A DNA stretch of 33,767 nucleotides from a virus: positions 1-33,767 of the IMG/VR virus record IMGVR_UViG_3300037193_001942; one strand, written 5' to 3'. How positions within the stretch are numbered: position 1 is the first letter of the stretch; every line of letters begins with the position of its first letter. Shown piece by piece: positions 2,073 to 29,599 of the stretch. Under the pieces are notes generated by a model. It worked only from the letters and a program-made list of their open reading frames with translations. It did no database searches and was not told the origin of the DNA. Position numbers and translations under genes: made by a program.

Positions 2073-2507
2073 CTAGGTGGGCCGTCCGGCTGACCGCACG
2101 GTGGTGGGCCGCCGCCGGCTCGCCGGAACGGCCGACACGGGCCGGACGGAATCCTTGCGTGCCTGGCTGAACGGGCGGGGCGCGACGTGCGAACGGCTGG
2201 CGAGGTCGGCTGTGCGGCCGATCTGACCAGAACCTAATTTAGGGTCTCCCCCGGCCCTGACCTGCTTCGGCATCAGGTCAGTGACCTCGACATCGAGCGC
2301 GTCCGCGATCAGCTCCAGGTCGTCCATGTCGAACGCGGTCTCGCCGGTCATGCGCCGGCTCATGGTGCTCTGCTTGATCCCCGTGCGGCGTGCGAGCTCC
2401 GCAGCACTGATGCGCTTGCGGGCGAGGAGTACGCGGATCTCCTCTGCCACATGCTCGCGGAGACGCCCTCGCGGCGGCGTCCTCTCGTCACTCATGGGAG
2501 ACATCAT
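2073..2507 (-). CDS. Phage repressor, XRE/Cro-C1 helix-turn-helix
   Basis: Up to 144 residues. Residues 15-75 form a five-helix XRE domain (ELARRTGIKQSTMSRRMTGE, then DMDDLELIADALDV). The rest is a basic Ser/Pro/Arg tail with no LexA/S24 protease domain, so RecA-stimulated self-cleavage is not expected. It is divergent from the Cro-like gene at 2618, and its operators fill the gap between them. Its recognition helix (QSTMSRRMTGE) almost matches that of the Cro-like protein (QSVLSRRMTGE), implying a shared operator. Start is uncertain among ATG 2507, 2504 and 2495; none has a clear ribosome site. Role: maintains lysogeny by silencing the early operon (inference from family and layout). Confidence 0.85.
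   Translation of the reverse strand: MMSPMSDERTPPRGRLREHVAEEIRVLLARKRISAAELARRTGIKQSTMSRRMTGETAFDMDDLELIADALDVEVTDLMPKQVRAGGDPKLGSGQIGRTADLASRSHVAPRPFSQARKDSVRPVSAVPASRRRPTTVRSAGRPT
2233..2243. repeat. AT-rich palindrome inside the repressor 3' half
   Basis: CCTAA-T-TTAGG, an 11-bp palindrome in an unusually AT-rich patch (2229-2247) of otherwise very GC-rich DNA. It lies just beyond the codons of the repressor's HTH domain. It could be a strand-exchange core for the nearby integrase or a regulatory site; neither is proved. Confidence 0.35.
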
Positions 2508-2508
2508 G

Positions 2509-2645
2509 ACCCGCTGGGCGGGTCAGAGGCAAGCCTGAGGTATGCCAACCCGACAGGTCTGAAGTTTACCCGCTGAGCGGGTTGACTACCCGCCCGCTGG
2601 GCGCGTAGAACAGTCACATGCAAGAAATCAACCCGGTGAGCGGGA
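2509..2645. promoter_or_regulatory. Operator array of the repressor/Cro switch
   Basis: Four copies of a 15-bp palindromic element, consensus ACCCGCTGAGCGGGT: 2509-2523 (ACCCGCTGGGCGGGT, one base off), 2568-2582 (perfect dyad with a single central G), 2592-2606 (three mismatches) and 2631-2645 (two mismatches, inside the first codons of the Cro-like gene). The second touches the -35 hexamer and the third lies in the spacer to the -10 of the rightward promoter, so binding would block early transcription. The first abuts the repressor start, allowing autoregulation. Confidence 0.8.
2582..2618 (+). promoter_or_regulatory. Rightward early promoter with predicted leaderless start
   Basis: TTGACT (2582-2587) and TAGAAC (2606-2611) are separated by 18 bp and resemble a housekeeping-sigma promoter. 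The expected start site, about 7 nt after the -10, falls on the A of ATG 2618. No Shine-Dalgarno precedes that ATG, so the transcript is probably leaderless, a common arrangement in actinobacteria. Two operator copies overlap the promoter. Confidence 0.6.
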
Positions 2646-2866
2646 CGCGAGAGGCGGTGATCGCCGCCGTCCGCGAAGCCATGGCAGAGCGCAAGGTCTC
2701 CGGCCGGGCGCTGGCCGCCCAGCTCCGCATGCCGCAGTCCGTCCTCTCCCGCCGCATGACCGGCGAGATCCCTTTCACGGTCGACGAACTCGCCGCGATC
2801 GCGACGGCCCTGAACTGGGAGCTGACCCTCCTGGTCACGCCCGCCGAGGCGGCGGGTGCCGCATGA
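2618..2866 (+). CDS. Cro-like XRE helix-turn-helix protein, first gene of early operon
   Basis: An 82-residue single-domain XRE protein (REAMAERKVSGRALAAQLRM, then QSVLSRRMTGE, then VDELAAIATALNWEL). It is the first gene of the long rightward operon, divergent from the repressor, with which it shares the recognition helix. Small single-domain proteins in this position are Cro-type: they bind the same operators and lower repressor and early transcription (family knowledge). The start at ATG 2618 coincides with the predicted transcription start. Its stop overlaps the next ATG (ATGA). Confidence 0.82.
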   Translation: MQEINPVSGTREAVIAAVREAMAERKVSGRALAAQLRMPQSVLSRRMTGEIPFTVDELAAIATALNWELTLLVTPAEAAGAA

Positions 2867-3501: not shown

Positions 3502-3752
3502 TCGCGCTCGCTCCCGGCCCGTCCGGCCCCGGCGGCCCGACGCATCCGAAGCCGACCGGCCCGCCGGCCCCGTCTCCGCCGCCGCGCATTGCGGTCGGCC
3601 CGTTCCCGCCGGACCCGCCTCGGCCGCTCCCGCCGAAGCCGAAGAACCAGCGCGGTTCGGGTCCCGGCCCGTCCGGCCCGGGTGGTCCGACCGGGCCGAG
3701 CTACCCGCGCCCGCTGCCGCCGTATCCGCCGTCGCAGATCACGCGGCCCTGA
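3498..3752 (+). CDS. Proline-rich small protein
   Basis: An 84-residue low-complexity protein, nearly half Pro, with two copies of GPSGPGGPT (near residues 7-15 and 57-65) and PPKP/PRPLPP stretches. GTG 3498 overlaps the preceding stop (GTGA), the same coupling used throughout this operon. No signal peptide is evident. Its composition would give an extended, disordered chain. It may instead be a fortuitous open frame in GC-rich DNA; confidence rests on the coupling and the following gene's spacing. Confidence 0.45.
   Translation: MIALAPGPSGPGGPTHPKPTGPPAPSPPPRIAVGPFPPDPPRPLPPKPKNQRGSGPGPSGPGGPTGPSYPRPLPPYPPSQITRP
3512..3679. repeat. 18-bp direct repeat within the proline-rich gene
   Basis: TCCCGGCCCGTCCGGCCC occurs at 3512-3529 and again at 3662-3679, 150 bp apart and in the same reading frame. 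It encodes the repeated PGPSGP motif. This suggests internal duplication of the gene. Confidence 0.6.
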
Positions 3753-13227: not shown

Positions 13228-13877
13228 CCCGGTTGGACGCCTCGCTCAAGTGGGGGCTCAGACTCTCCGACCTTGAGCGCGTCGCTCGCCGGGCGGCATG
13301 GAACACCCGAGCCGGCGCGGCCCAGTTCGACGACCGATATGCGGTGGCGTTCGGCGCCGCGGTGGAGTTCCTCTATGCCGCCGAGCAGCCCGTGCCCGAG
13401 GCCCTCCTTTACCGGGCCGCCCAGGACGGGCTCTTCCGCGAGTCGGACAAGGTCCGCAGCTACGCGGGGATCGGTTGGCGGCCCGATGAGGGGTACGGCG
13501 AATCCGGGGCCGCGCCGAGATTCGTCATGTACTGGGCTGACCAGAACCTTCCGACACCGTCACCGGAGAACGGTGTCGTGGAGCGGATGGCGCTCGCCCA
13601 GATCCTGCCCACGCTCCCCCCGAAACAGTTGCAGGCCGTCCTGGCGCTCGCGGCGACGGGGAGCCACCAGGCCGCAAAAGAGGCGCTCGGCAACCCGTCC
13701 TGGTACGGCCGGTACTTGTCCCTGGCTCGGCGGCACATCCTGGCGCTGTGGCACGAGGGCGAGGAGCCCAGTCGGGTCTGGGGAATCGACCGCCGAGGCT
13801 CCCGGCCGGTGCGTGACCGGCTCAGGAATACGCGCAACAAGCGCGCCCGAAAGGGGTCGCCTGACGCCCGGCCGTAA
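13224..13877 (+). CDS. Sigma-70 region-4-like regulatory protein, candidate late activator
   Basis: 217 residues from ATG 13224. Residues about 120-175 (RMALAQILPTLPPKQLQAVL then ALAATGSHQAAKEALG) match the helix-turn-helix arrangement of sigma-factor region 4, where LPPKQ…AVLAL and a second helix contact the -35 element. An N-terminal helical domain is of unknown type, and a very basic tail (RDRLRNTRNKRARKGSP) follows. No region 2 is seen, so it is not a full sigma factor. Being the last gene before a gap and the replication block suggests a switch protein for later transcription (inference). Confidence 0.6.
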   Translation: MTRLDASLKWGLRLSDLERVARRAAWNTRAGAAQFDDRYAVAFGAAVEFLYAAEQPVPEALLYRAAQDGLFRESDKVRSYAGIGWRPDEGYGESGAAPRFVMYWADQNLPTPSPENGVVERMALAQILPTLPPKQLQAVLALAATGSHQAAKEALGNPSWYGRYLSLARRHILALWHEGEEPSRVWGIDRRGSRPVRDRLRNTRNKRARKGSPDARP

Positions 13878-13927
13878 CCATTCCCCACGCGGCCGGACCG
13901 CATTCCACTAACGCACGTCCCCGCAAT

Positions 13928-13957
13928 TTGCGAGGGCTTGCAGATAGCGATTAGAGC
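13928..13957 (+). promoter_or_regulatory. Possible promoter before the replication genes
   Basis: After the sigma-like gene there is a relatively AT-rich gap with TTGCGA (13928-13933) and TAGAGC (13952-13957) separated by 18 bp. The match to consensus is weak. The surrounding 13878-13967 stretch holds no other clear element. Confidence 0.3.
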
Positions 13958-13967
13958 ACGAGGCGAG

Positions 13968-14123
13968 ATGGTGATCAAGAATACGGCAGGCGACGGCGCG
14001 CCATTGATTGTCATGCGCCGTGAGCTGGGAGAATTGGGTGGACCGGAAAGGGCGTGTCACCGCCCGATCCGGCCGCTAGGTCCCCGATTCGAGCCAACCG
14101 AACCGGAAGGAGCCGTGCTGTGA
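13968..14123 (+). CDS. Possible 51-residue peptide upstream of initiator
   Basis: ATG 13968 follows GAGG at 6 nt. It encodes VIKNTAGDGAPLIVMRRELG and a basic Pro-rich tail. The stop overlaps the GTG of the next micro-gene (GTGA), continuing the operon's coupling pattern. It is lower in GC than its neighbours. No family; may not be expressed. Confidence 0.35.
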   Translation: MVIKNTAGDGAPLIVMRRELGELGGPERACHRPIRPLGPRFEPTEPEGAVL

Positions 14124-14194
14124 CTATCGCATGGCGCTCACCGTTTCCGCACGCCCACGCCGCCGTGTCATTCGCCATTCCGGCGGGCGACTGA
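14120..14194 (+). CDS. 24-residue leader peptide coupled to the initiator
   Basis: GTG 14120 has an excellent ribosome site (GGAAGGAG, 14105-14112, 7 nt away), whereas the initiator's own ATG has none. The peptide runs VTIAWRSPFPHAHAAVSFAI and stops at TGA 14192-14194, sharing one base with initiator ATG 14194. This fits translation of the initiator being coupled to a leader. The alternative is that the initiator starts at ATG 14131 in another frame, 18 nt from the site. Confidence 0.45.
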   Translation: MTIAWRSPFPHAHAAVSFAIPAGD

Positions 14195-14946
14195 TGGGCG
14201 CGACCAACGCGCTCGACGCGTACCGGCGCTTCGGCGGCAAGGTGCCGGCCACCTCGCTGGCGGTCCTGGTCTACATGGCGCTGGTCTCGAAGGACCGCGA
14301 CGCCTGGCCGTTCTACCGCTCCGGCCAGCACGCCATCGCCCAGCATGCCCTCGGCCGCACGAACCCGACCGAGCCCGACCTGAGGGCCGTCCAGCGCGCC
14401 CTGAAGCCCCTCCTTGACGCCGGGGCGATCACCGTCGAGCGCGCCGGAGCGGCCCGATCCGACGGCAACACCACCGCCCGATACCGGCTGAACCTTCACG
14501 AGCGGGCCGACAAGGCGCGCGCCGATTGGGAGCAGACACCCGACGGAAAGCGTCGGATGTCGGATGGCCGCAGAGATCAACAACATACGACGAAAAGTGG
14601 CGGAGACATACGACGAAAAGTGACGGGACATACGACGGTTTCTGACGAGACACCCGACGAAAACCGTCGGCCTAAGGAGACAAGAGGAGACATGAGGAGC
14701 GATAAAACCGAGGAAGAAGGGGTTGATGTAACTACGGCCTCTCACCCTCCGCGCGCGAGCACGCCGAGCGCCAAAGCCCCCGTGATCCGCCTCGATGAAC
14801 GCCGACCCCGCGACAGCCGCCCGCCCGGCCGCGCCGTCGTCACCCGCAGCGAGGAAGTCGCCGAGCGACTCCGCGAAGCCAGCGCCCGCGTCGCAGCTCG
14901 ACGCGCCGAGCACCAAGCCCGCCTCGCCTCAGGAGAGAACCCGTGA
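14194..14946 (+). CDS. Replication initiator, winged-helix protein
   Basis: 250 residues. The N-terminal domain (residues 5-100) is a winged helix of the phage replication-protein O / RepA type: LDAYRRFGGKVPATSLAVLV, YMALVSKD, SGQHAIAQHALGRTNPTE, VQRALKPLLDAGAITVERAG. The middle (about 115-175) is a polar linker whose DNA is the iteron array. The C-terminal part is basic and helical (VTRSEEVAERLREASARVAA). By analogy with lambda O, the N-terminal domain would bind iterons in its own gene. The start at ATG 14194 is coupled to the leader. No DnaC/DnaB-like partner is found downstream, so host helicase loading is implied. Confidence 0.75.
   Translation: MGATNALDAYRRFGGKVPATSLAVLVYMALVSKDRDAWPFYRSGQHAIAQHALGRTNPTEPDLRAVQRALKPLLDAGAITVERAGAARSDGNTTARYRLNLHERADKARADWEQTPDGKRRMSDGRRDQQHTTKSGGDIRRKVTGHTTVSDETPDENRRPKETRGDMRSDKTEEEGVDVTTASHPPRASTPSAKAPVIRLDERRPRDSRPPGRAVVTRSEEVAERLREASARVAARRAEHQARLASGENP
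14536..14670. repeat. ori: Iteron array: predicted replication origin inside the initiator gene
   Basis: Five repeats with core ACAyacGACGaaaa lie at 14536-14552, 14583-14599, 14606-14622, 14628-14644 and 14650-14666. The last four are spaced 22-23 nt, two helical turns. Two copies (14583, 14606) are identical over 17 bases (ACATACGACGAAAAGTG). The outermost copies are dyads CCGACG-N5-CGTCGG (14540-14556, 14654-14670). An AT-rich, purine-rich stretch (14671-14730) follows, a plausible unwinding element. The layout mirrors the lambda origin inside gene O. Confidence 0.75.
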
Positions 14947-15194
14947 CCTGCCTCGCCATCTGCATCACCCCCAGCCCGACCAACGCCCACTGCGGCGCAT
15001 GCCACGTCACCTTCGGCTCCGTCAGCGGCTTCGACCGCCACCGGCGCGGCGGCGAATGCCTCGACCCGGCCGGGCTCGGCTTCGTCCGTGACCGCAACGG
15101 CATCTGGCGGTACGCCTCGCCTGACGGCCTGGCCGCCTGGCCGCAGCGTGCCGCCGCCCCCGCCATCCCGCTCGACTCCCGGAGGACCTCGTGA
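14943..15194 (+). CDS. FDxHR-type putative zinc-binding protein
   Basis: 83 residues from GTG 14943 (GTGA overlap). CGACHVTFGSVSGFDRHRRG followed by GEC reads as CxxC-x10-FDxHR-x4-C, the signature of the small actinobacterial and actinophage FDxHR zinc-binding family, related to C2H2 fingers. The C-terminus (GIWRYASPDG) is also typical. Function in phage is unknown; nucleic-acid binding is likely. Confidence 0.8.
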   Translation: MTCLAICITPSPTNAHCGACHVTFGSVSGFDRHRRGGECLDPAGLGFVRDRNGIWRYASPDGLAAWPQRAAAPAIPLDSRRTS

Positions 15195-16121: not shown

Positions 16122-16651
16122 ACAAGGAGCGCGTAGTTGCTCGTCTGACGAAGTACAGCCGACGAGACGGGGACTGCATCCGGTGGACAGGCCGGCTTAA
16201 CGTCAAGGGCTACGGGCAGATCGGCGTTGACGGGAAGTCCAGAGCGGCCCATCGGGTCGCGTACGAAGTGCTGGTCGGGCCCATTCCTGCCGGTTTGGAG
16301 ATCGACCACCTGTGCCGAGTCCGGGACTGCATCAACGTGCAACACCTTGAGCCGGTGACCCACCTGGAGAACGTTCGCCGTCGGCGTGACAACCCTGACG
16401 AGTGCGTCAAAGGCCACCCGTTCAACGAGGAGAACACCTACTGGTTCAACCAGAAGGGCCGCTCGAACCCGGTGCGAAAGTGCAGGCGGTGCAGGAAAGA
16501 ATCCAACGCCGCCCGGCCGCGTCGGCCGATGACCGACCAGGACAAGGAGCGACTGGCTGCCCGTGATCGACGGGGCCGGAAACGTGCCCGGCCCGCGCGG
16601 CCCATCCCGGACCCGGATCAGGGCCTGTGGCTGACCAGGGAGGGCGCGTGA
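16118..16651 (+). CDS. HNH endonuclease, possibly mobile
   Basis: 177 residues. The HNH_3-type core is clear: GYGQIGVDGKSRAAHRVAYE, GPIPAGLEIDHLCRVRDCIN and HLEPVTHLENVRRR, where the DH, N and H residues of the fold are all present. A zinc-ribbon-like C-terminal region (KCRRCRKESN) and a basic tail follow. Codon use is less GC-biased than its neighbours (for example GTAGTTGCTCGT early in the gene), suggesting recent acquisition. HNH_3 proteins are usually homing-type endonucleases; a role in packaging is less likely as it is far from terminase. Confidence 0.85.
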   Translation: MNKERVVARLTKYSRRDGDCIRWTGRLNVKGYGQIGVDGKSRAAHRVAYEVLVGPIPAGLEIDHLCRVRDCINVQHLEPVTHLENVRRRRDNPDECVKGHPFNEENTYWFNQKGRSNPVRKCRRCRKESNAARPRRPMTDQDKERLAARDRRGRKRARPARPIPDPDQGLWLTREGA

Positions 16652-16902: not shown

Positions 16903-18041
16903 CCGACCCGACCTGCGTGTGTGGTTGCGACCGCCCCTGCCCCGACGGCTACGCCCGAGCCGAGTGTGCCGCCCGTGTCCGGCTGGCCCTGCTCGGCGAC
17001 GACCGGCAAGACGACCGGCCCGGCCTCGTGGACACCGCGCCCGCAGCCCGGGACATCGCCTACGGGATCGCCGTTGTCGGCACCGGGGGTGGATCATCCG
17101 GCAAGCCAGGGTCGCGAATGCCCCTGGATCTTGCCGTGGCGGCCAAACTGGACGCGGTGCAGGGGTCGGTTACCACCTGGGCCCGTCACGTCGCAGAAGA
17201 GCGCTCAGGCGGTTTGTGGGTCGTCACCGAGCCGCCCCGCCGGGAACCCATCGCCGGGCCGCTGTGCCGCAGCCGCTACGAGTGCGGGCACGACTCGTGC
17301 AAGCCGATCCGAGACCCGGAGTCGGTCAAGGCCGCCGACCCGCTTGAACAGGCCGCCCGGTATCTCGCGCACAACCTGGAGTGGCTGCGGCATCGGCCCG
17401 AGTGCGACGAGGCGTTCTCGGACTTGCTGGCGGCGGCGGGCGTGGTGCGCGCGATCGTGGCCATGCGGGGCGGGCGGAAGTACCTCGGGCCGTGCGGGGC
17501 GACGCTGAGGCCGAGGCCCTGTTGCGACCTGCACAACGAGAACTGCGAGCCCTCCGGAGATCTGTGCTGCCAGGAATGCACCGAGGCGGCGCACGCCACG
17601 TTCCCGGTGCCGCACCTCGATGGCTCCCACTGCGTCCTGAACACCATGACCTGCGAGGGTGACGTCTACGGCTACCCGGGTGCGGCCAGCGGGCGATGCC
17701 GGACGTGCGGCGCCGAGCACGACCAGGGCGAGCGGCAGGCGTGGCTCGCCGAGGAAGCCAGCAAGGCCGTCGCCCGCGCCTCACTCATCGCCGACGCCCT
17801 CCGCATCAACGTCAACACCATCCGGTCCTGGGCGTTCGGACGGCCCGAGGTGGTCGCGGAGAACGGCGTCGTCGTGCGCGAGGCCAAGCCGCCCGTGTTG
17901 TTCCCGCGCGACCACGACTCGGCAGGGCGTCCGCTGTACCTGGTCGGAGACGTGCGCGAGCTGGCCAGGCAGGCGGCCGAGAGGCGCGAGGCGGCGCGGG
18001 CGAAACGAGAGCAGCGGGAAACCGCCGAGATGGGAGCATGA
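16899..18041 (+). CDS. Large Cys-rich protein with C-terminal HTH-like region
   Basis: 380 residues from ATG 16899 (ATGA overlap). The N-terminus CVCGCDRPCPDGYARAEC is a Cys cluster, and several more CxxC/CxC sites lie in the centre (PRPCCDLHNENCEPSG, LCCQECTEAAHA, GRCRTCGAEHDQGERQAW). The last 130 residues read as a DNA-binding module (SLIADALRINVNTIRSWAFG then RPLYLVGDVRELARQ), similar to a helix-turn-helix with a wing, as in excisionase-like or MerR-like readers. Proteins of this build are frequent in actinophages, with unknown function; a nucleic-acid-binding regulator is likely. Confidence 0.7.
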   Translation: MTDPTCVCGCDRPCPDGYARAECAARVRLALLGDDRQDDRPGLVDTAPAARDIAYGIAVVGTGGGSSGKPGSRMPLDLAVAAKLDAVQGSVTTWARHVAEERSGGLWVVTEPPRREPIAGPLCRSRYECGHDSCKPIRDPESVKAADPLEQAARYLAHNLEWLRHRPECDEAFSDLLAAAGVVRAIVAMRGGRKYLGPCGATLRPRPCCDLHNENCEPSGDLCCQECTEAAHATFPVPHLDGSHCVLNTMTCEGDVYGYPGAASGRCRTCGAEHDQGERQAWLAEEASKAVARASLIADALRINVNTIRSWAFGRPEVVAENGVVVREAKPPVLFPRDHDSAGRPLYLVGDVRELARQAAERREAARAKREQRETAEMGA

Positions 18042-28140: not shown

Positions 28141-28700
28141 TACGCAAGCGCCTCCGGCCGACTCCGACATCCGCCGAGCTGGCCAAGCTGTACGCCGCGC
28201 CACACGACCACCTTCAGTTCGACGACCACGTGTACCGGGTCGATGTCTCCTCGGCCATGGCTCATCACCTGCTCCCGCCGGGCGGGACCGTCGCAGACCT
28301 GTCCTGCGGCAACGCACTGATCGCTCGCCGCCTGCAGGCCTCCCATGGCGCCAGGATGGTTCTCGGCGACTACGCGCCCGGCTACCAGCACACCGGGCCG
28401 ATCGAGCAGACCATCGAGGCGATCGAGCCGGTTGACCTGTTCATCTGCTCAGAGACGATCGAGCACCTCGACGACCCGGACGCCGTCCTGGCGAAGATTC
28501 GCCGCAAGACGGCGCGGCTGCTGCTGTCCACCCCGGACGGCGAGACCGACGACAGCAACCCCGAGCATGTATGGGGCTGGGACGCCGAGGCGGTCGAGAA
28601 GATGCTGCGCGAGGCCGGGTTCATCCCGGACGTGCACACCACCGTCGATCTGCGCCCGGCGGGCGGCGTCTACGCGTTCCAGATCTGGGCGTGCCGATGA
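28137..28700 (+). CDS. SAM-dependent class I methyltransferase
   Basis: 187 residues from ATG 28137 (ATGA overlap). The Rossmann-fold SAM site is visible: VADLSCGNALIARRL (motif I, 52-66; the usual DxGxG is DLSCG), acid D78 in VLGDYAPG, and DLFICSETIEHLDDP (100-114), the UbiE/Coq5-type motif. The product methylates a small molecule or sugar more likely than DNA, as there is no target-recognition domain or DPPY motif. It probably completes a methylated sugar in this cassette. Confidence 0.82.
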   Translation: MIRKRLRPTPTSAELAKLYAAPHDHLQFDDHVYRVDVSSAMAHHLLPPGGTVADLSCGNALIARRLQASHGARMVLGDYAPGYQHTGPIEQTIEAIEPVDLFICSETIEHLDDPDAVLAKIRRKTARLLLSTPDGETDDSNPEHVWGWDAEAVEKMLREAGFIPDVHTTVDLRPAGGVYAFQIWACR

Positions 28701-29599
28701 AGGCCTTCGTCACCGGCTCGGCCGGTTTCGTCGGGCGGCACGTGGTTGCCGAGCTTCAGCGGCGCGGCTGGAACGTGATGCTCTGCGACGTCGCATACCC
28801 GGGCGGCCTCGGGCTCCCCCCGAAGGACGCACTCGAAGCGTTCCGGGTCATCGACGACATCCGGTTCGACCTGGTCGTGCACGCCGCCGCCTCGTCGCCG
28901 CATCGGGCCGCGATCGACGGCGAGCCGCAGCACTTCGCCCGCAACCTGCAGCTCGACAGCGCGATGTTCGACTGGGCGGTGCGTACCGACCAGGGCCGGG
29001 TGCTCTACCTGTCGTCGAGCGCCGCCTACCCGATCGACCTGCAAGACGACCACGCGACCGCGCGCCACCTGCGGGAGGACGACATCCGCTGGAATGGCCG
29101 CCGGAACCTCGGCAACCCGGACGCGGTCTACGGCTGGGCGAAACTGACCGGCGAGATGCTCGCCGAGCAGGCGCGCCAGGCCGGGCTGCCGGTCACCGTG
29201 GTCCGGCCCTTCTCCGGCTACGGGGAGGATCAGACGGAGAGCTTCCCGTTCCGGGCGCTCGTCGAGCGGGCACGCCGGCGCGAGGACCCGTTCGTGATCT
29301 GGGGCGACGGCAACCAGGTCCGCGACTGGATCCACATCGACGACGTGGTGGCCGGGATGCTCGCGGTCGCCGAGTCCGGCACCGACGAGCCGGTGAACCT
29401 GTGCACCGGCGTCGGCACGTCGATGCGCGAGCTGGCCGAGCTGGCGTGCGCGGTGGCCGGCCACGCGCCGCGTTTCGAGTTCCTCGCCGACAAACCCGCG
29501 GGCGTCGCCTACCGGGTTGGCGACCCGGCGCGGTTCCGCCAGCACTGCAAGCCGACGGTGACGCTCGCCGAGGGCGTCGAGCGCGCCCTGAAGTCCTGA
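28697..29599 (+). CDS. NAD-dependent nucleotide-sugar epimerase/dehydratase
   Basis: 300 residues from ATG 28697 (ATGA overlap). Extended SDR: GSAGFVG (7-13) is the GxxGxxG NAD site, LVVHAAAS is the conserved strand, LSSSAAY carries the catalytic Ser, and YGWAK (145-149) is the YxxxK catalytic pair; VRPFSGYGEDQ and RDWIHIDDVV are classic GalE/RmlB-type motifs. It converts an NDP-sugar (epimerisation, dehydration or reduction; substrate unknown). Adjacent GTs and methyltransferase suggest it prepares the donor sugar. Confidence 0.9.
   Translation: MKAFVTGSAGFVGRHVVAELQRRGWNVMLCDVAYPGGLGLPPKDALEAFRVIDDIRFDLVVHAAASSPHRAAIDGEPQHFARNLQLDSAMFDWAVRTDQGRVLYLSSSAAYPIDLQDDHATARHLREDDIRWNGRRNLGNPDAVYGWAKLTGEMLAEQARQAGLPVTVVRPFSGYGEDQTESFPFRALVERARRREDPFVIWGDGNQVRDWIHIDDVVAGMLAVAESGTDEPVNLCTGVGTSMRELAELACAVAGHAPRFEFLADKPAGVAYRVGDPARFRQHCKPTVTLAEGVERALKS

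Follow-up and report, generated by a model that had tools for sequence, protein, structure and literature searches.

We found a putative phage replication origin in a virus record of 33,767 bases and about 70% G+C (the window, by which we mean the whole stretch of DNA that was analysed). An array of five repeats and the AT-rich tract behind it very probably constitute this origin, which would lie inside the gene of its own initiator in the manner of lambda O and SPP1 gp38. Most likely, a phage of soil-type bacteria here starts DNA copying at repeats located within the gene for its starter protein. Such an in-gene arrangement was common among the relatives of the window, each of which has a repeat sequence of its own. 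That the origin lies within the initiator gene after the fashion of lambda O had been proposed in the initial annotation, and this remained the best supported reading, with constraint at the DNA level, a predicted winged-helix initiator, the tract, and the arrays of relatives all pointing to it. To our knowledge, the origins of most actinophages are unmapped. Genes for an integrase, a portal protein, a capsid protein, RecT, and YqaJ were all found in the window, and the RecT relatives detected in genomes came from Actinomycetota according to record titles in 16 of 16 cases. One related locus (L017) is as long as the window (33,767), probably by coincidence; in the part compared, it had only the recT and yqaJ DNA in common with the window (67-74%).

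The predicted initiator gene (P0001) extends from position 14194 to 14946 on the plus strand, encodes 250 aa, and was recognized by a match to phrog_391, by alignment, and by structure models. Its product is predicted to consist of a winged helix (approximately residues 1-105), a disordered linker (approximately residues 105-215), and a C-terminal helix (approximately residues 219-246). The match to phrog_391 ("replication initiation O-like") was weak and lay partly in the linker (E 6.4e-7, 30.3 bits, residues 63-186). Close homologues of P0001 were found neither in phages (tblastn, 1e-3) nor in plasmids, viral contigs, or genome contigs. A search relaxed to E 10 listed four phage records, whose E values of 6-9 were taken as chance, and a tblastn match to L106, a Lentzea locus (E 4e-5, small search set), was dropped as it read as a CI-type repressor. 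The nearest homologue, encoded by L018, was 26% identical in the N-terminal stretch that was aligned, and alignment with initiators of related loci revealed a winged-helix pattern that P0001 has in common with them. An alignment-based model of the N-terminal domain contained helices and a two-stranded wing (mean pLDDT 75.8). The fold search with the P0001 model returned winged helices generally, among them 4pt7 and 5kbj, whose titles name initiators, and did not single out initiators from other winged helices. The full-length protein was modelled poorly from the single sequence (mean pLDDT 53), with no predicted structure in the part encoded by the repeats; the C-terminal helix (residues 219-246, encoded at 14848-14931 on the plus strand) was the sole part after the linker that this model predicted confidently (pLDDT 88-91 in blocks covering residues 221-240).

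The array occupies positions 14535-14670 in the middle of this gene, behind the sequence for the DNA-binding domain. The earlier placement of the repeats in the linker-coding part of a winged-helix protein agreed with the alignment and the models, in which the repeat region is disordered. Five plus-strand copies of a 22-mer make up the array (iterons 1 to 5 at 14535-14556, 14582-14603, 14605-14626, 14627-14648, and 14649-14670) with spacings of 47, 23, 22, and 22 bp, so the last four are indeed 22-23 bp apart as first noted. All copies share the core ACAYMCGACGR; of the longer consensus ACAyacGACGaaaa originally given for five repeats, the number of copies held, and the terminal "aaaa" was exact in copies 2, 3, and 5 only, with GGAAAG in copy 1 and GGTTTC in copy 4. 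The perfect 6-5-6 dyad CCGACG-N5-CGTCGG reported for both array ends was present there (14540-14556 in iteron 1, 14654-14670 in iteron 5) and was restricted to these outer copies. The three inner copies kept the left half, with a weak right half in which approximately 3 of 6 positions pair as judged by eye. Thus two outer iterons are perfect inverted repeats and three inner ones are weak, while the lambda copies scored 6, 4, and 5, with the fourth not returned. Single dyads of the form CGACG-N5-CGTCG (1 mismatch) showed no enrichment across the record (12 observed versus 12.9 expected), and the evidence therefore lies in the array and not in lone dyads. In a tiled scan of the record, 14535-14670 was the strongest 22-mer array. 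No match to the window iteron was found among viral contigs, and the GC skew showed no clear turn at the array.

Directly behind the last iteron lies a tract (14671-14730, plus strand) that we propose as the unwinding element on the basis of its composition, its repeats, and its likeness to L018. The AT-rich purine tract of the initial annotation was recovered, since these 60 nt were 52% A+T and 77% purine (the coding strand being purine-rich) and the most AT-rich 60-nt segment of the 33,767-base record begins at 14675 (32/60). The tract holds three 10-bp repeats (14675-14704), and among 398 background windows 0.5% reached its periodicity; repeats of short period after the array were significant for the window (0.005) and not for many other records. 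The window tract and that of L018 had 19 of 23 bases in common (CCTAAGGA..CAAGAGGA..CAT), in codon phases 0 and 2, respectively. When the two sequences were scanned for this level of likeness in 303 and 562 windows, each gave one window as good, which by its position was the tract itself. Among viral contigs, five stretches matched the tract motif, of which one was the known L018 record (L103) and four were not initiators. Across arrays whose ends were placed by hand, the 60 nt that follow the final repeat had a higher A content than the whole gene in 23 of 24 cases (mean 0.294 vs 0.195). For 20 of 21 arrays, including that of lambda, the last repeat spacing before the tract fell within 20-25 bp. 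Array ends were likewise set by hand for the periodicity and Arthrobacter analyses, and L027 was kept in the A-content and periodicity work although its array lies outside any shown initiator gene.

We collected 80 related viral loci by RecT. In the three loci with RecT identities of 84% (L003), 77% (L004), and 73% (L005) to the window, the corresponding neighbourhood, located before Xre and phrog_908-like genes, again had a winged-helix gene with a repeat array, and the repeats differed (GGGGACA..TGTCCCC, AGGGCAC..GTGCCCT, and CACGGA..TCCGTG, respectively). A strict detector of tandem dyads with out-of-frame spacing (score 26 plus spacing filters, thresholds chosen after a first look) returned 13 arrays in the 80 loci, all 13 in genes matching PHROG replication-initiation families; run on loci including the window, it did not return the window array. 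Lowering the score to 20 under unchanged filters gave 27 listed arrays, of which 15 (lambda included) were placed in initiator genes. A mirror-repeat control gave 22 mirror versus 13 dyad arrays at score 26 and 2 versus 11 at score 35. Because this control was not clean at score 26, initiators were also picked by protein family alone (phrog_391 places) for a synonymous-shuffle test, in which a gene passed if its observed score was equalled or exceeded by no more than 3 of 300 shuffles. This test was passed by 11 of 18 initiators, window and lambda O included, and by none of 15 recT controls; without the window and lambda, 9 of 16 initiators passed. For the seven failing initiators, the shuffles out of 300 that reached or exceeded the observed score numbered 7 (L120), 14 (L034), 6 (L073), 199 (L027), 154 (L071), 69 (L074), and 103 (L078). 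The initial annotation would have been contradicted by homologues lacking the repeats; a significant array was present in 11 of 18 initiator genes and not in the other seven, and an in-gene array is common but not universal among initiators. In-gene arrays were also present in prophages of Propionibacteriaceae and Streptomyces genomes (L114, L115, L116, L117), the one in L116, from Streptomyces griseofuscus DSM 40191, lying near 17,360-17,590; the initiator of L116 had no PHROG family match, L115 and L117 being outside that scan. Propionibacterium phage PFR1 (L084) carried 8-bp GGAACAGA repeats after TCTCGCGAG repeats at 16259-16298, inside its annotated replication initiation gene, and the GGAACAGG repeats of L034 resembled those of L084.

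Conservation of repeats at the DNA level could be followed among Arthrobacter phages, for which we used Amelia, Abidatro, Brynnie, Kuleana, and Andrew, five of eight phages after three near-duplicates were left out. All five had a GGGGTG iteron with mostly 22 bp spacing inside a winged-helix gene. Protein identity across pairs was 51% in the linker, 81% in the winged helix, and 78% in the C-terminal part. Synonymous differences at identical residues amounted to 5/94 in iteron-core codons and 14/146 in the A-rich tract, and to 34/197 in the linker, 245/729 in the winged helix, and 291/786 in the C-terminal part. In these five phages, which is the scope of this statement and does not extend to the window, the repeats are kept as DNA while the linker protein drifts; a comparison of this kind had been suggested in the initial annotation. 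The five Arthrobacter phages and Streptomyces phages SV1, Mojorita, Tubberson, ToastyFinz, and Eklok resemble the window in having a winged-helix gene, in-gene iterons, and an A-rich tract after them. They differ from it in their repeats (GGGCCGG-type dyads, or GGGGTGMAC without dyad), and their initiators belong to other winged-helix families with a longer conserved C-terminal part. Their genes were annotated as DNA-binding, helix-turn-helix, or replication initiation protein, and the feature tables of these phages had no origin annotated. In open-licence literature screened by title and abstract, with subscription papers outside the scope, in-gene iteron origins of Streptomyces or Arthrobacter phages were not described. 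The signature of out-of-frame repeats in a winged-helix gene followed by an A-rich tract indicates where an origin may lie in named phages that are in culture, among them Streptomyces phage SV1 and Arthrobacter phage Kuleana.

Among known systems, lambda O with ori-lambda is similar to the window in that the origin lies in the middle of the initiator gene (L011), which the text of PMC7466680 describes also for the Stx phages P27 and 933W. Lambda-type origins have 4-6 imperfect inverted-repeat iterons followed by an AT-rich tract, those of lambda being 6-5-6 and 20-24 bp apart according to the same account (PMC7466680). The array score in the shuffle test was 11 for both lambda O and the window. 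The window iterons are, however, unrelated to those of lambda in sequence, the protein is related by a weak family match only, and its model lacks a folded C-terminal domain. Gene P comes after lambda O, whereas after the window initiator comes a gene with a zinc domain, and no loader is recognised. SPP1 offers a further parallel, as direct repeats and an AT-rich unwinding region are described within gene 38 and are bound by its product gp38 at oriL (PMC6316719); SPP1 encodes the helicase loader gp39 and the helicase gp40, whereas the window had no match to PF01695 or PF03796. RepA of mycobacteriophages Miko, Rachaly, and Jeeves has an N-terminal helix-turn-helix, and its authors suggest that the origin may be within repA, as in lambda (PMC7157519). 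Unlike in the window, repeated motifs were not reported for repA by these authors, and RepA serves prophage maintenance beside parABS (PMC7157519). Features of the lambda O type found in the window were in-gene repeats after the DNA-binding domain as candidate sites, the adjoining AT-rich tract, and the N-terminal winged helix; an adjoining loader gene of the lambda O/P type and a phage DnaB helicase of the SPP1 type were not found. By its anatomy the window would thus be classed with the in-gene origins of lambda O and SPP1, short of the adjoining loader.

If the linker needed a repeated peptide or a particular base composition, the DNA repeats would simply follow from coding, and arrays of this sort do occur in the record: those starting at 3514, 24588, and 31314 have most or all spacings in multiples of 3. 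Among ten arrays listed from the record, only 14535-14670 has no spacing divisible by 3. Its copies stand in codon phases 0, 2, 1, 2, and 0, so that the same DNA encodes different peptides (TPDG, HTTK, DIRRK, HTTV, and TPDE for copies 1 to 5). None of 3000 synonymous-codon shuffles of the gene reached its array score of 22, the shuffle maximum being 14. The Arthrobacter relatives moreover freeze synonymous sites at the repeats while the protein varies. Codon phase and the 3000 shuffles rule out repeats of purely coding origin for the window, and we assign this explanation a negligible probability.

It is improbable, though less so, that the repeats are operators through which the winged-helix protein or another phage regulator controls its own operon, with replication starting elsewhere. 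Winged helices are common in regulators, from which the fold search does not separate P0001, and the record does have an operator-like dyad array at 2509-2645 between divergent repressor genes. Against an operator function, the array under study lies deep in a coding region and not at a promoter, is unlike the 2509-2645 array in sequence, has the AT-richest 60-nt stretch of this record behind it, and has equivalents in genes named replication initiation. We consider it slightly less probable again that the array is an origin, but a decayed or alternative one, in a phage that replicates mainly by recombination or from another origin. The RecT and YqaJ genes, the weak dyad symmetry of the inner iterons, and the lack of an encoded loader or helicase would fit with this; the intact reading frame, the strength of the array, the fact that lambda iterons are imperfect too, and the lack of a comparable array elsewhere in the record argue against it.

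An active in-gene origin, the reading we prefer, could work as follows. The N-terminal winged helix would bind the five iterons lying in the coding sequence of its own linker and bend the DNA into a nucleoprotein complex, and the resulting strain would open the AT-rich tract at 14671-14730 beside the last iteron pair. Host DnaB might then be loaded via host factors such as DciA or via the C-terminal helix of the initiator, which is the weakest step of this scheme. Host DnaB is proposed because neither a loader nor a DnaB helicase nor DciA was recognisable in the record. The initial annotation had noted that no helicase loader or primase was recognisable nearby. For the loader this was extended to the whole record, which had no match to PF01695, DnaB_C (PF03796), or DciA; primase was looked for only by family scans of 20 non-structural proteins, which returned no replication enzyme except RecT and YqaJ. 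The genes adjoining the initiator have other domains or none, and a P-type loader outside PF01695 could still be encoded. Directly downstream, an overlapping plus-strand gene (14943-15194) encodes a protein with an FDXHR zinc-binding domain by domain match, and L004 has a relative of this gene directly 3' of its initiator.

Loading by host proteins directly, for want of a phage loader, had been considered unusual, which was not borne out. We screened 21 records, namely the window and 20 loci, many of them fragments and including L007, L010, and L027 with unconvincing arrays; a PF01695 loader was found in 6, a DnaB-type helicase in 5, neither in 14, and DciA in none. With 14 of 21 records devoid of both, the window is not exceptional among those screened. 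Among the initiators listed, those of loader-bearing records tended to have a helical C-terminal domain and cysteine-rich tails occurred in loader-free records, a simple pattern in hand-picked genes; the window has neither. Actinobacteria such as mycobacteria have DciA in place of DnaC or DnaI (PMC5109545, PMC5720831), and recruitment via host DnaB or DciA would therefore be the likely route for the window. Bare and zinc-tail initiators, should they prove to load the host helicase with no loader from the phage, would offer small tools for studying DnaB loading in bacteria without DnaC and DnaI.

Similarity between winged helices was correlated with similarity between iterons, the positions of which were placed by hand (Mantel r 0.59 with n=26, and 0.49 with n=21 after removal of near-duplicates; 0/5000 permutations each). 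The rank correlation after de-duplication was not significant (Spearman 0.10, 851/5000). The genes at L005 18269-19018 and L079 13412-14323 had winged helices with 48% identity, nearly the same iteron, and different C-terminal halves, and loader and helicase genes were present in the L079 record and not in the L005 record. From sequence comparison, the pair appears to reflect a natural swap of domains at the origin. We tentatively suggest, as a possibility we would not put at even chances, that temperate actinophages have a modular origin cassette, in which the winged helix and the type-specific iterons behind it travel together and the 3' half is exchanged, with the window as the bare form. 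On the same tentative reading, the exchanged 3' halves would be of three kinds, namely a helical domain that depends on a loader, a zinc-tail form, and one that is nearly bare, and a bare initiator would open the origin without a folded helicase-recruiting domain and leave loading to host DciA/DnaB.

Upstream of the initiator, a leader ORF of 24 aa (14120-14194, plus strand) lies behind GGAAGGAG, and its stop codon overlaps the initiator ATG (TGATG), which suggests that translation of the two may be coupled. The region before the initiator, including the start of this ORF (13950-14134), was 75% identical over 191 nt to L005 17630-17814, and the initiators behind it differ. A shared regulatory leader may thus front exchanged initiators in the window and L005. 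An Rfam search of 13700-14950 gave no match up to E 1, and a structured RNA in the conserved leader (13870-14119) was not convincing by folding (z -1.33).

Some further features of the window were observed. The second dyad array at 2509-2645 comprises four dyads of type ACCCGCTGRGCGGGT between divergent Cro/CI-type HTH genes at 2073-2507 (minus strand) and 2618-2866 (plus strand), and these dyads are likely operators of a lysogeny switch. At the extreme left end a tRNA-Thr gene (19-99) adjoins the integrase gene and is perhaps the attachment site. Surrounded by morphogenesis genes, we also found a gene for an NAD-dependent epimerase/dehydratase (28571-29599; PF01370, E 3e-37), the product of which is possibly involved in glycosylation of the capsid or the host surface.
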